A stretch of 64,000 bases of DNA, taken from Geodermatophilus pulveris (lineage in GTDB: Bacteria; Actinomycetota; Actinomycetes; Mycobacteriales; Geodermatophilaceae). Within the stretch, counting starts at the first letter, position 1. Each line of letters opens with the position of its first letter. Under the pieces are notes generated by a model. That model was given only the letters and a program-made list of their open reading frames with translations. It made no database searches and was not told where the DNA came from. The DNA is taken from positions 186,001 through 250,000 of the forward strand of contig NZ_FZOO01000004.1 in assembly GCF_900188375.1 (NCBI RefSeq), read 5' to 3'. Both the position numbers and the translations under genes were made by a program. This document shows positions 45,378-57,436 of this stretch, one piece after another.

Positions 45378-46543
45378 GGCTCCCCGCCGACCTCGCCCGC
45401 CCCGCCTACGGCACGGCCAGCCTCGCCGACGTCCTGCCCGGCGCCGCCGCCGCGCTCGGCGTCCCGGTGCCGCGCGGCGACCTGCCGGCCGACCCGCTCG
45501 GCCTCACCACCGCGCTGGGCGGCGCACGCCGGGTCGCCGTCCTGCTGGTCGACGGGCTCGGCGCGGACCTGGTCCGCGCGCACGCCGCCCTCGCCCCGAC
45601 CCTCGCCGCGCTGGCCTCGCCCGCCGGCGACCTGTCCGCCCCCTGCCCCAGCACCACCCCGGTCAGCCTCACCACCCTGGGCACCGGCCTGCCGCCGGGC
45701 AGCCACGGCGTCCTCGGCTTCGTGACCGCCGTCCCGGGGGAGGACCGCACGCTGGACCACGTCCGGTGGCGCGACGACCCCGACCCCGACGTCTGGCAGC
45801 CGCGGCGCAGCGTCTTCGCGCAGGCCGCCGACGCCGGCGTCGAGGTCACCGTCGTCGCCCCGTACGCCTTCGCCGGCTCCGGGCTGTCCCGCGCCGCCTA
45901 CCGCGGCGCCCGCTACGCCGGCACGGTCGGCGCCGGCGACCTGGCCGCCGTGGTGCTGCAGTCGCTGGCCGCCGCACCGCGCACCCTGGTCTACGGCTAC
46001 ACCGCCGAGCTGGACCTCACCGGCCACGTGCGCGGCGTGGACTCCGCCAGCTGGCGCGCCCAGCTGGCGCTGGTCGACGCGCTGGTGGCCCAGGTGGTCG
46101 ACGGCCTGCCGGACGACGCCGCGCTGCTGGTCACCGCCGACCACGGGATGCTCGACGTCCCGGCCGGGACCCGGCTGGACCTGGACGCGACCCCCGAGCT
46201 CACCGACGGCGTGCGCCTGCTGGCCGGCGAGCCGCGGGCTCGCTACCTGCACGCGGTGCCCGGCGCGGAGGCCGACCTGCTGGCCCGGTGGCAGGAGGTG
46301 CTCGGCGAGCGGGCCTGGGTGGCCGGCCGCGACGAGGCGATCGCCAGCGGCGTCTTCGGCCCGGTGGACGACGGGGTGGCCGGGCGGATCGGGGACGTCG
46401 TCGCGCTGGCCCGCGGCACCTGGGCGATGACCGCGACCGAGCGGGAGCCCGGCCCGAGCCGGCTGGTCGGCTACCACGGCTCGCTGACCCCGGTCGAGCT
46501 GGCCGTCCCGCTGCTGGCCGCCCGCGGGCGCGCCCTCGGCTAG
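45374..46543 (+). CDS. Alkaline-phosphatase-superfamily (nucleotide pyrophosphatase/phosphodiesterase-like) protein
   Basis: 389 residues. VAVLLVDGLGADLV supplies the first metal Asp. PSTTPVSLTTLGTGLPPGSHG contains the Thr nucleophile region. VYGYTAELDLTGHVRGVDS and LLVTADHGMLDVP supply the Asp/His metal ligands. This is the type I phosphodiesterase/NPP layout. There is no signal peptide, so it acts in the cytoplasm or at the inner membrane face. GTG 45374 overlaps the methyltransferase stop. The stop overlaps that of the convergent ferredoxin-like gene. Confidence 0.87.
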   Translation: MRLPADLARPAYGTASLADVLPGAAAALGVPVPRGDLPADPLGLTTALGGARRVAVLLVDGLGADLVRAHAALAPTLAALASPAGDLSAPCPSTTPVSLTTLGTGLPPGSHGVLGFVTAVPGEDRTLDHVRWRDDPDPDVWQPRRSVFAQAADAGVEVTVVAPYAFAGSGLSRAAYRGARYAGTVGAGDLAAVVLQSLAAAPRTLVYGYTAELDLTGHVRGVDSASWRAQLALVDALVAQVVDGLPDDAALLVTADHGMLDVPAGTRLDLDATPELTDGVRLLAGEPRARYLHAVPGAEADLLARWQEVLGERAWVAGRDEAIASGVFGPVDDGVAGRIGDVVALARGTWAMTATEREPGPSRLVGYHGSLTPVELAVPLLAARGRALG

Positions 46544-47538
46544 AGCCCCGGCAGCAGCCGCACCCGCCAGGTGCGGCTGTGCGCGGGGTGGGTCGCCCGG
46601 CAGGTCAGCGGCGCGGCCCCCGCCGAGGGCCGGCTCTCCACCTCGGTGACCACGTCGCCGTCCGGGCCGGCGAGGGTCACCACCCACCGCTCGACATCCA
46701 CCCCCGCAGGGGTCAGCCGGCGCACGTCACGCGGGTGCAGGTCGTCGACGCCGAGCAGCGCGAGCTCCGTCCGGGCGGTGTGCTGGGCGGCCTGCACCGG
46801 GGCGGGCAGCCCCGAGCGGCCGCGCAGCCACGGCAGCGCGACCCGCCCGGCGGTGTGCGCGGCGACCAGCTCGGCGCCGTCGCCGGGCAGCTGGCCGTAG
46901 GCGAAGCCGTGCGGCAGCACCAGCACGTTGCCGGCGAAGCGGCAGCCGCCCAGGTGGCTGCACTCCCAGACGTCGTCGGCCGGCAGCGTCCGGGCCAGCG
47001 GCCGCCCGCGCAGGGCGCAGCAGGCGTCGTGCGCGCCGTGCGCACAGACCAGGTAGACCGGCCCGCCGGCGGGGTCGCCGACCGACCCGTCCCAGGGCGC
47101 GTCGACCAGGTCACCGTCGCGGTCGCGCACCGACCACCACACGCCCTCGGCGCCCGGGCGGCCGTCGACGTAGGCCCACCGCCGCTGCGAGTCGGCCAGC
47201 CGGTCGCCCGGACGGCGGATCATCAGCACCCGCACCCCCTCGGCCCGCGCCCGGTGCGCCAGCCGGGGCGCCACCGCGGGGTCGAAGCGGGACTGGGTGA
47301 GCGCGTCGGTGCCCCACGGGCCGGGCTGCTCGACCAGCAGCCAGCGCTGGGCCGGCGAGGCCGTCGCGACGCCGGGGTCCCCGCGGACGAGGGCCTGCAC
47401 CGAGCAGCGGTCCTCGGTGAGCCGGCCCTCGGGCAGCCCGGGGGCCGCGGGGACGCGGCAGAAGTCGGCCGGTGCCGTCACGCCCGGGGGTCCGGCCGGC
47501 TCACGATCCGGTTCCGGGCGCGCGTCCACGCCCCCCAT
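46540..47538 (-). CDS. Sucrase/ferredoxin-like (thioredoxin-like Fe-S) protein
   Basis: 332 residues of the sucrase/ferredoxin-like family. An N-terminal domain has RWLLVEQPGPWGTDAL and VRVLMIRRPGDRL. The cysteine-rich core reads VCAHGAHDACCALRG then WECSHLGGCRFAGNVLVLP, resembling a thioredoxin-fold [2Fe-2S] ferredoxin. The last 90 residues (QAAQHTARTELALLGVDDL) form a C-terminal domain. Its start lies 38 bases inside the end of the JmjC oxygenase gene, so it is the third gene of the repeat-peptide operon. Electron delivery to the oxygenase or another partner is inference; family function is not well established. Confidence 0.83.
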   Translation of the reverse strand: MGGVDARPEPDREPAGPPGVTAPADFCRVPAAPGLPEGRLTEDRCSVQALVRGDPGVATASPAQRWLLVEQPGPWGTDALTQSRFDPAVAPRLAHRARAEGVRVLMIRRPGDRLADSQRRWAYVDGRPGAEGVWWSVRDRDGDLVDAPWDGSVGDPAGGPVYLVCAHGAHDACCALRGRPLARTLPADDVWECSHLGGCRFAGNVLVLPHGFAYGQLPGDGAELVAAHTAGRVALPWLRGRSGLPAPVQAAQHTARTELALLGVDDLHPRDVRRLTPAGVDVERWVVTLAGPDGDVVTEVESRPSAGAAPLTCRATHPAHSRTWRVRLLPGL

Positions 47539-48814
47539 CGTCCTCCGCGGTCGCCCCGGGCACCGTGACGATCGACTCGGTCACCAGCCGCCGGGCCAGG
47601 GTGAGCTGGTCGGCGGCGTCCAGGCCCGGCAGGTCGGCGACCTTCAGCTCACCGGCGGCCAGCAGCGCGGCCACCGCCGCCCCGGTCTCGGCCGGCAGCT
47701 CCAGCGAGCGCCGCCCGGCGAGCAGCGTCACCCGGCCGTCGGCTGCCGGCTGCAGCCGGCAGCGCAGCCGGCGACGCAGCTGCAGCACCGTGTCCGGCGA
47801 CAGGGTCGCCGCCGCGGTCGCCTGGGCCAGCGGCGCGACCGGCTCGGGGCGGACCTGTGCCCAGGTGCGGGCGCGCAGCCGGTCGGCGACCTCGGCGGGG
47901 TCGACCCGGTCCAGCCAGCCCCGGAGCGCGGTCACGACGGCGGTGACGTCGCCGGCCACCGCGGCCGGGTCGGCGAGGTCCACGCCCAGCGGCAGGGACC
48001 GGCGCAGCTCCGGGTCGTCGGCGGCGAGCACGCGGACCAGGTCCAGCGCGGACTCCGCGGCCGCCCAGCGGGTCACCGAGTGGATGCCGACGGTCAGGTG
48101 GGCGCTGATGGCCCCCAGGGCGGTCGCCGAGTGCAGGTGGCCCCGCGGCAGGTAGAGGGCGTCGCCGGGGCGCAGCACCGCGTCGACCACCGGCTCGCGC
48201 TCGGCGGCGGCGGCCACGGCGGCGGCCCGGTCGGTCCACGGCTGGGTGCGCAGCGGGTCGGTGAGCACCGGCTCGTGGATGCGCCAGTGCTTCTCGCCGG
48301 CCACCTGCAGCACGAACACGTCGTGCACGTCGTAGTGCGGGGCGAAGCCCCGCGAGGACGGCGGGGTGACGTAGGCGTTGACCTGCGTCGGGTGGCCGAG
48401 GTCGGCGGCCAGCTGGTCGGCGAACTCGACCAGCGGCGGCCACAGCCGGTGCAGACCCTGCAGGACGACGGTGCTGCCGTCGGCGAAGAGCCGGGCCACC
48501 GAGTCCGAGGAGACCTGGTCGGCGACCTCCGCGCCGGCGCCGCCGGAGGTGGTGAAGCGCTTCGCGTCGACGACCACGCCGTCCTTGGCGATCCGCAGGA
48601 ACGGGGTGCGCAGCCCGCGGCGGGACAGCAGCTCGTCGACCGCGGCGAGGTCGAGCAGGTCGGCGAAGGAGTTACCGGTCTCCTCCGCGCGGGTCAGCAG
48701 CGGCCGGCGGGCCCAGTACTCCTCGGCGAAGACCCGCGGCTCCAGGGCGGTGCACCGCCGCAGGGCCGGCCGGGCGTCCCCCGGCCGGCCCTGGGTGGTG
48801 TGGTCCTCGGTCAG
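47501..48814 (-). CDS. JmjC/cupin 2-oxoglutarate oxygenase, CTG start
   Basis: Homology extends well upstream of the first in-frame GTG (48577): FAEEYWARRPLL and FLRIAKDGV belong to the family. No ATG, GTG or TTG lies in frame before it. The best start is CTG 48814, which overlaps the previous gene's TGA as CTGA, like the GTGA/ATGA couplings elsewhere here. The 437-residue protein resembles ribosomal oxygenases of the NO66/YcfD type. The Fe(II) triad is His160, Asp162 (PHYDVHD) and His228 (PRGHLHSA); Lys175 in GEKHWRIHE probably binds 2-oxoglutarate. A winged-helix-like C-terminal region follows. It should hydroxylate a protein or peptide side chain. The target could be a ribosomal protein or the adjacent repeat peptide. 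Confidence 0.85.
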   Translation of the reverse strand: MTEDHTTQGRPGDARPALRRCTALEPRVFAEEYWARRPLLTRAEETGNSFADLLDLAAVDELLSRRGLRTPFLRIAKDGVVVDAKRFTTSGGAGAEVADQVSSDSVARLFADGSTVVLQGLHRLWPPLVEFADQLAADLGHPTQVNAYVTPPSSRGFAPHYDVHDVFVLQVAGEKHWRIHEPVLTDPLRTQPWTDRAAAVAAAAEREPVVDAVLRPGDALYLPRGHLHSATALGAISAHLTVGIHSVTRWAAAESALDLVRVLAADDPELRRSLPLGVDLADPAAVAGDVTAVVTALRGWLDRVDPAEVADRLRARTWAQVRPEPVAPLAQATAAATLSPDTVLQLRRRLRCRLQPAADGRVTLLAGRRSLELPAETGAAVAALLAAGELKVADLPGLDAADQLTLARRLVTESIVTVPGATAEDDGGRGRAPGTGS

Positions 48815-49128
48815 GCGGAACCGTCCGCGCCGCCGTCGGCACCGCCGTCGGCACCGCCGTCGGCACCACCGTCCGACCCGCCACCGGCCGCGCCGCCGTC
48901 GGCCGGGCCGTGGCCCGCGCCGCCGTCGGCACCACCGTCGGCCCCGCCGTCAGCCCCGCCGTCGGACCCCCCGCCGACCGCGCCGCCGTCGGCCGGGCCG
49001 TGGCCCGCGCCGCCGTCGGCACCACCGTCAGCCCCGCCGTCAGCCCCGCCGTCAGCCCCGCCGTCGGCCCCGCCGTCAGCCGGGCCGTGGCCCTCGGTGC
49101 TGGTCATGTCGTCGTCGTCGAGCGCCAT
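48811..49128 (-). CDS. Asp-Gly-Gly-Ala repeat peptide
   Basis: 105 residues, unrecognised. A 12-residue leader (MALDDDDMTSTE) is followed by three repeats of 29-34 residues, each beginning GHGPADGGA and continuing as runs of DGGA. Repeats start at residues 13, 42 and 72; the second and third carry GGGS after the opening. The end is DGSA. ATG 49128 follows AAGAGGAGA, a good ribosome-binding site. The stop overlaps the oxygenase CTG. There is no signal peptide, TM helix or Cys, and the chain is highly acidic. The repeats, small size and adjacent oxygenase suggest a modified peptide precursor or a flexible substrate. That is inference; a low-complexity artefact is the alternative. Confidence 0.6.
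   Translation of the reverse strand: MALDDDDMTSTEGHGPADGGADGGADGGADGGADGGADGGAGHGPADGGAVGGGSDGGADGGADGGADGGAGHGPADGGAAGGGSDGGADGGADGGADGGADGSA
48830..49085 (-). repeat. In-gene tandem repeats encoding DGGA
   Basis: 12-base units (GAC GGC GGT GCC and variants on the minus strand) sit inside three larger repeats of 87-102 bases, each marked by the GHGPADGGA codons. Synonymous changes between units suggest they are old rather than a recent expansion. Confidence 0.8.
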
Positions 49129-49150
49129 GGGTCTCCTCTTCGGTCGGGTC

Positions 49151-49172
49151 CGGGCCGCCGGCCGGCGGCCCG
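49151..49172. promoter_or_regulatory. 22-bp perfect palindrome in leader of repeat-peptide operon
   Basis: CGGGCCGCCGG joined to its reverse complement, centred 33 bases before the ATG of the repeat peptide. In RNA it would form a strong hairpin upstream of the ribosome-binding site; in DNA it could be an operator. The 270-base divergent gap 49129-49398 holds no other recognised feature. Confidence 0.45.
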
Positions 49173-49398
49173 CCGGGCGTTGCTGTACCTCATCCATCTT
49201 CCACTCACACTCCCAGCTCGACCAGCGGGGACGGCCGGTGGGCGACGGCTCGGTCACGGCGCCGCGGAGGGGCGCCGGAGTGGTCGTTGACGATCCGGTG
49301 ACGGCTGCCGCGCGGAGGTGGCCGGCCCTCCGGCCCGGGGAACCCACAGGGGCACGGAACGTCATCGGACGTGGACGACAGACGAGGAGGAACAGGTC

Positions 49399-50166: not shown

Positions 50167-50176
50167 GCCGTGGGGG

Positions 50177-51450
<1,274 letters not shown>

Positions 51451-56328: not shown

Positions 56329-57315
<987 letters not shown>

Positions 57316-57321
<6 letters not shown>

Positions 57322-57436
57322 GCAGCCTCCTCGGTCACGCAGCCTCCCCCGGTCACCCGGCCACCCCCGCTCACGGAGCCTCCCCGGTCACAGAGCCTCC
57401 CCGGTCACGGAGCCTCATCGGTCACGCAGCTTCCTC
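57316..57436 (-). repeat. Tandem array of RBS-start units in front of moxR
   Basis: Seven imperfect units of 17-18 bases, beginning at 57316, 57333, 57351, 57369, 57386, 57403 and 57420. On the minus strand a typical unit reads GGGGAGGCTCCGTGACC, that is a Shine-Dalgarno sequence, 4-5 bases and GTG-ACC. The innermost unit contains the moxR start (GTG 57321, followed by ACC). Units 2 and 3 are 18 bases long, the rest 17, so most upstream GTGs are out of frame with moxR. Confidence 0.82.

Follow-up and report, generated by a model that had tools for sequence, protein, structure and literature searches.

FIH is a JmjC oxygenase that hydroxylates Asp, Asn and His in ankyrin repeats, and PqqD and the RiPP recognition elements (RREs), known from ribosomally synthesized and post-translationally modified peptides (RiPPs), bind leader peptides. 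Here we compare with such systems a locus of Geodermatophilus pulveris (contig NZ_FZOO01000004.1, 186,001-250,000 of the forward strand, in a genome of 4.38 Mb); this 64,000-nucleotide (nt) stretch is the window, and all positions are counted within it. At 49128-46540 on the minus strand, 3 overlapping open reading frames (ORFs) encode a repeat peptide, a JmjC oxygenase and a sucrase/ferredoxin-like (Suc_Fer-like) protein. The overlaps reported in the initial annotation are there: the peptide stop overlaps the enzyme frame (CTGA), and the enzyme and Suc_Fer ORFs share 38 nt. It is highly probable that the enzyme and the repeat peptide form an enzyme-substrate pair. We also favor, though with considerably more reserve, a reading of the 3 genes as a RiPP-type cassette that would represent a candidate RiPP class, with a JmjC-RRE enzyme of NO66 type hydroxylating the aspartates of the repeats.

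NO66 and MINA53 (PF08007) resemble the window enzyme over the full-length fold, including a C-terminal winged domain, and the iron-site residues align; the window enzyme differs in being bacterial and encoded beside a repeat peptide, with about 22-26% identity. YcfD also has the PF08007 fold with a winged C-terminal domain, and FIH is like the window enzyme in being a JmjC oxygenase. RRE-bearing RiPP systems (PqqD, TbiB1, PbtF, McbB and others) have in common with this locus a precursor of leader and core beside the enzyme, and an RRE fold, which in our enzyme is predicted. Here, however, the enzyme is a JmjC oxygenase, the repeat core is very rich in Asp, and no linked protease or exporter is seen with a coarse ORF caller. 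Xia et al. are said to have reported in 2025 an alpha-ketoglutarate-dependent macrocyclisation in RiPPs.

A JmjC-related enzyme in a RiPP pathway is also found in biphenomycin-type clusters, which, in the portions of the published account drawn on here, use the JmjC/cupin hydroxylases BpmG and PbsQ for tailoring; there the step stands beside an MNIO, an arginase and a B12 radical SAM enzyme, and PbsQ acts on Orn (PMC12257519). The window cassette, unlike those clusters, has no other modifying enzyme seen adjoining the pair. Bregman et al. (2025) describe, for fish and algae, fusions of RRE-like folds to PF08007 domains, and in one sentence place the closest bacterial homologues (~30% identity) in RiPP-like contexts; the main-text parts compared contain nothing on a peptide family, on repeats or a leader motif, or on distribution and chemistry (PMC12710340). 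Open-literature searches, including one with the string DGGADGG and with subscription papers mostly outside their coverage, returned no description of the repeat peptides. The present results take that single-sentence remark to a defined system, with precursor, leader motif, cores, RRE-type enzyme and distribution. Pairs of Asp-rich peptide and oxygenase in many actinobacteria point to a widespread type of modified bacterial peptide that has largely escaped description. Such a system would provide JmjC oxygenases with a dedicated bacterial peptide substrate, together with many natural repeat substrates for iterative hydroxylation, and would bear on the origin of eukaryotic ribosomal oxygenases.

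The coding features of the locus are as follows.

49093-49128, minus strand: leader MALDDDDMTSTE of the repeat peptide (ORF translation; motif comparison across loci)
48811-49092, minus strand: repeat core (DGGA / GHGPADGGA) and stop codon (ORF translation; tandem-repeat detection)
47501-48814, minus strand: JmjC oxygenase of NO66 type, with a probable CTG start at 48814 (Pfam, alignment, fold comparison)
47555-47842, minus strand: RRE-like (PqqD-like) C-terminal domain of the oxygenase (prediction, domain folded alone)
46540-47538, minus strand: Suc_Fer-like ferredoxin-type protein (PF06999; conserved Cys and His)

Pairing of an Asp-rich peptide with the oxygenase

As a pairing criterion we required an Asp fraction of at least 0.128 in the last 70 amino acids (aa) of the most Asp-rich ORF ending just before the JmjC gene, having dropped a cut-off of at least 0.10 as too loose because the control then reaches 41/215. 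The loci are related and mostly drawn from top hits, so the fractions that follow are not counts of independent events; they exclude copies of the window (L001-L003). Among 75 named loci with upstream sequence, the JmjC gene is preceded by an Asp-rich ORF in 65 at a fraction of at least 0.15 and in all 75 at 0.128, against 1/215 and 9/215, respectively, for other long ORFs of the same loci used as the control. Distinct loci with at least 150 nt of upstream sequence and a profile score of at least 450 have the Asp-rich ORF (at least 0.128) directly before the enzyme in 129 of 129 cases, and those scoring 280-450 in 18 of 22. Below a score of 280 the count falls to 1/10, and the single positive, L030, is an enzyme from the same genus that a contig end has cut to a fragment. 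Three loci cut by contig ends (L029, L086 and L203) were not judged, and in L160 the peptide is visible but was missed by the automatic count. Oxygenase homologues that never carry such a peptide, named at the outset as evidence that would tell against a dedicated pair, were not encountered within the close family.

JmjC homologues (E <= 0.001) occur in 26/26 genomes searched in the genus, in 92/150 in the order, and in 60/396 in the phylum; the window JmjC is at most 92% identical to the JmjC of named Geodermatophilus. In the same 150 order genomes, at least 2 DGGADGxA sites on one strand are found in 70 of the 82 with a strong JmjC match (~200 bits or more) versus 4 of the 68 without, and at least 3 sites in 63/82 versus 1/68. 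Eleven of the 12 strong-JmjC genomes that miss the motif belong to families f6 and f10, and the six loci read there have a different core. The 4 genomes with the motif and without a strong JmjC comprise three with a more distant JmjC at 91-120 bits (G107, G113 and G120) and one with a weak fragment at 22.9 bits (G116). On plasmids, 112 records were retrieved, none of which attains 60% identity or covers 80% of the query.

Several JmjC genes met along the way have other surroundings. A related design, with the core VIADNDPSDP beside a ~35% identical JmjC, is found in L162, from an order genome, and in Streptomyces clavuligerus; as a second precursor design it combines this core with the leader SLEPDEIEV in L162 and in L213 (2838-4233), one of them on a Streptomyces clavuligerus plasmid. 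L167, L168 and L170 have divergent JmjC genes with Suc_Fer adjacent and a short upstream ORF containing ADNDGND, with no repeats, and in L163 a long ORF upstream of JmjC resembles a SagB-type oxidoreductase. On plasmids, the JmjC gene of L215 (Pseudanabaena) lies near a LanM lanthipeptide synthetase gene, and that of L216 (Streptomyces) belongs to a pair that has an MFS transporter and an M13 peptidase as neighbors.

Leader, repeat core and the modified residue

The window peptide (ORF 49128-48811, minus strand) has 105 aa, the acidic leader MALDDDDMTSTE being followed by 93 residues in blocks of DGGA, GHGPADGGA and GGGSDGGA. ORF, array and leader motif were all recovered, so the 12-residue acidic leader and repeat peptide of the initial annotation stand. 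The tandem array at 48825-49093 has a period of 90 nt, 3.0 copies and 89% matches, and it also contains a simple 12-nt unit in a GC-rich region, as a low-complexity DNA repeat lacking any protein function would. Differences between adjacent repeat units in 142 arrays number 356, 361 and 2146 at the first, second and third codon positions, a count whose construction holds Asp constant in one codon out of four; the roughly sixfold excess at the third position indicates that it is the peptide that is kept, not a DNA repeat alone. With the ORF intact in the 25 same-genus loci L004-L028 and the leader common to several families, we give a mere DNA repeat a negligible chance. Broken repeat ORFs in close relatives, which had been proposed as counter-evidence, are thus not seen, and the suggested comparison of repeat number across strains yields 84-129 aa with 12-19 DGGA-like units in these 25 loci. 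The 26th same-genus genome is split over contigs, and the peptide is visible there too (L030). No Pfam or NCBIfam model matches the window peptide at E 0.1, and none matches three relatives at E 10; for deep-branch peptides Pfam gives only sub-threshold matches (PF14406, E = 0.34-0.36; PF08017, E = 0.024) and NCBIfam none.

A recurrent leader motif, [L/I/V/F/M]-x-D-[D/E]-D-[I/M/V]-x-[T/S], was recognized, and a loose pattern for it matches 123/129 loci with a score of at least 450; 19 loci failed the pattern scan within the first 70 residues, partly through wrong automatic starts. The form L-x-D-D/E-D-I-x-T is mostly retained in distant branches, and the cores change along the enzyme tree. By clade, the core types are DGGA; DADQGDS/DPAGSDPAGTDP; and DGDASDA/DADAADA. 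The last of these belongs to deep branches, some with LSDEDINTVTGG-like leaders, which to our eye resemble in style the leaders of other RiPPs; Pfam comes nearest with PF14406, below its cut-off. When 76 enzymes are placed on a quick tree, the label DPAG requires 1 change (support 100), DxD 1 (support 97) and DGGA 2, where label shuffles average 5.9, 14.7 and 25.0 changes, respectively. The labels of L158, L160, L167, L168 and L170 were assigned by hand, and L197 was labeled DxD via a loose pattern, its actual unit being ADGTDQGVxGGTYGPRDA. As far as sequences can tell, a feature of RiPP systems is seen here, namely a ribosomal precursor with a conserved leader and a variable core beside a putative modifying enzyme, with the exception of a subclade (L154, L185, L186 and L187) taken up below.

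The JmjC ORF ending at 47501 matches PF08007 (JmjC_2, E = 1.1e-27) and PF13621 (E = 7.2e-8). The intact HxD...H triad first read from the window holds across the family, since the iron-site residues H160, D162 and H228 are invariant in 62 aligned homologues. Human NO66 is matched along the full length, including the C-terminal winged domain, and better than YcfD or FIH. With its HxD...H site and winged domain, the enzyme is a member of the PF08007 NO66/MINA ribosomal-oxygenase fold family. The initial annotation had set it beside enzymes of the NO66, YcfD and FIH types; the histidyl hydroxylases NO66 and MINA are its closest relatives, rather than YcfD or FIH. An FIH-type asparaginyl/aspartyl hydroxylase as closest homologue was ruled out by the sequence matches (E = 4e-42 for NO66 versus ~6e-4 for FIH). 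When the C-terminal domain (47555-47842) is folded alone, the predicted fold matches PqqD and RREs, which are frequent though not universal in RiPP biosynthesis; sequence models did not identify this domain, and the Pfam matches of 19 members include no PqqD model. The proposal of a dedicated substrate, built of leader and repeat core, gains from this RRE-like domain, from the pairing across families, and from the intact same-genus ORFs.

The peptide could also be the mature product, an acidic repeat protein such as a metal- or surface-binding polyanion, with the oxygenase acting elsewhere and the genes merely co-regulated. Ribosomal oxygenases do target ribosomal proteins, according to Protein Data Bank (PDB) entry titles, and the lack of a conserved leader protease or exporter in 17 loci, by the coarse ORF caller, would suit such a protein, as would a subclade without the usual leader. 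Near-obligatory pairing with translational overlap, a leader motif common to clades with different cores, and the RRE-like domain make it quite unlikely in our judgment.

From what was computed, that is gene order, conservation, leader and core architecture, catalytic residues and predicted folds, we infer leader binding, a modified residue, iteration, a role for Suc_Fer, and a function. The precursor would consist of the acidic leader and the Asp-rich repeat core. The C-terminal RRE-like domain would bind the leader, and the Fe(II)/2-oxoglutarate site would then work iteratively along the core, so that many residues become hydroxylated, the beta carbons of the repeat aspartates being the most likely sites. 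Asp is favored because it is the sole functional side chain dense in every core, and we regard it as the probable modified residue. Residue presence across 134 distinct cores is 134 for Asp, Ala and Thr, 133 for Gly, and 103 for His, a composition that includes a few non-core residues where automatic starts lie too far upstream (e.g., L004, L016, L109, L186 and L193). The same cassette might instead modify His or another residue, the Asp-rich repeats then serving as a scaffold or as the functional acidic part. The closest solved relatives, NO66 and MINA, are histidyl hydroxylases per their PDB entry titles, and many repeats carry a single His (GHGPADGGA, NPGGHDGGADGSA), but 31/134 cores lack His, most of the DGDASDA/DADAADA peptides among them, and in Phytohabitans the His position is occupied by Arg. 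We therefore consider a His target unlikely.

What weighs against the cassette reading as a whole is a subclade of the DGGA branch (L154, L184, L185, L186 and L187) whose members lack the usual LxDDDI leader or carry it in altered form, although all but L187 keep the repeats. In L154, L185 and L186 the repeats begin almost immediately, and L187 has an acidic ORF of a different kind, without the repeats. Because of this subclade we lowered our confidence in the cassette by a small step and slightly raised that in a His target and in a mature acidic protein.

The cassette would probably yield a hydroxylated, acidic repeat peptide that works inside the cell, or once unlinked functions of the host have released it, and that perhaps binds metal. 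Hydroxyaspartate is an iron ligand in siderophores, and a metal-related function is conceivable, if doubtful. Equally tentative is a wider proposal, that a phylum-wide and so far undescribed RiPP class makes poly-beta-hydroxyaspartyl repeat peptides via a single JmjC-RRE enzyme and that the eukaryotic NO66 and MINA53 might descend from such peptide-modifying enzymes and owe their winged domain to an inherited RRE.

Translation start and upstream elements

The enzyme frame is without ATG, GTG or TTG near the N-terminus, the first such codon being at 48577 (residue 80), so the probable start is the CTG at 48814. The overlap reads NTGA in the enzyme frame in 96/127 distinct loci with a peptide, 83 of them having CTGA, and 24 of the 25 same-genus loci L004-L028 have no in-frame ATG, GTG or TTG between 150 nt upstream and 130 nt downstream of the peptide stop. 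Other families include several loci with ATG, GTG or TTG at or beside the CTG position, and from this comparison the oxygenase probably does start, if weakly, at the CTG. Gene callers may truncate these enzymes on account of it. This weak start (CTG in this family) would couple translation of the enzyme to the peptide gene's end, leaving substrate in excess over enzyme. A peptide-JmjC fusion by -1 frameshift seems less likely: the loci checked have no in-frame natural fusion, no classical slippery site was seen by eye, and a CTG start is simpler.

Upstream of the peptide gene, a GTGT(G)-N-G(A)GGTA pair followed by an 8-bp hairpin is conserved in 52 Geodermatophilaceae sequences, with the following elements in the window.

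49206-49210, minus strand: putative promoter-like element, upstream half GTGTG (GTGT near-invariant in 52 aligned Geodermatophilaceae upstream regions)
49186-49191, minus strand: putative promoter-like element, downstream half GAGGTA (GGTA near-invariant in the same alignment)
49152-49171, minus strand: hairpin of the 5' untranslated region, 8-bp stem GGGCCGCC/GGCGGCCC, loop GGCC (RNAalifold with shuffle and slide controls)
49133-49138, minus strand: GAGGAG, likely ribosome-binding site of the peptide gene (read from the sequence)

RNAalifold recovered the hairpin unaided, and 7/8 pairs have changes on both sides among the 52 sequences. None of 500 shuffles attains the hairpin's values for pairing, double changes or covariation; one of five measures, the number of further pair types, is attained by 35/500, and sliding the partner by 1-3 columns takes pairing from 93% down to 26-56%. 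Rfam gives the upstream region one weak match, far below the gathering score, and no consensus promoters or terminators were found.

The last peptide codons, GCG GAC GGT TCG GCC TGA (48811-48828, minus strand), are unusually constant across 76 junctions, with GCG in 73/76 and GGT in 60/76; elsewhere in the arrays GCG accounts for 30% of Ala and GGT for 31% of Gly. Such synonymously conserved tail codons, the stop/start overlap and the conserved 5' hairpin are what one would expect of a translated regulatory leader, a short ORF tuning oxygenase synthesis whose peptide has no separate function. Against that stand the amino-acid constraint, lengths that range over 84-129 aa across 25 same-genus genomes, and an Asp-rich repeat architecture with a different unit per clade, and we consider a purely regulatory ORF very improbable.

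The Suc_Fer-like protein and the gene neighborhood

The third ORF matches PF06999 (Suc_Fer-like) with E = 1.4e-14 and 55 bits versus a cut-off of 34.9. C45, C165, H167, C173, C174, H195 and C313 are conserved in 35/36 aligned Suc_Fer rows, the other row being gapped, and site 199 is D in 28, C in 5 and E in 2. We take C165, C173, C174 and H195 to be candidate ligands of a [2Fe-2S] cluster. For P0003 no credible solved relative was found by sequence, the one match having E = 0.47.

Suc_Fer follows JmjC in 117/131 loci scoring at least 450, in 18/23 at 280-450, and in 0/9 of the lowest band; tblastn located it there neither in those genus-g21 loci that were read nor in Phytohabitans. The initial annotation had cast the ferredoxin-like protein as a supplier of electrons. 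It is common beside the enzyme without being obligatory, so the role is unproven. Under the cassette reading, Suc_Fer would be an accessory redox protein that probably holds the iron centre in its reduced state or takes on a redox reaction at a later stage.

No other gene next to the pair, and no linked protease or exporter of the kind that RiPP systems commonly have but do not require, is conserved across families in 17 loci, as judged with the coarse ORF caller, which itself found JmjC in 15/17 and Suc_Fer in 8/17. Elsewhere in the window, a run of about 44 G (95% matches) at 50172-50215 may be an assembly artefact or a tract subject to phase variation, and a 17-nt tandem repeat of 6.9 copies occupies 57315-57434.

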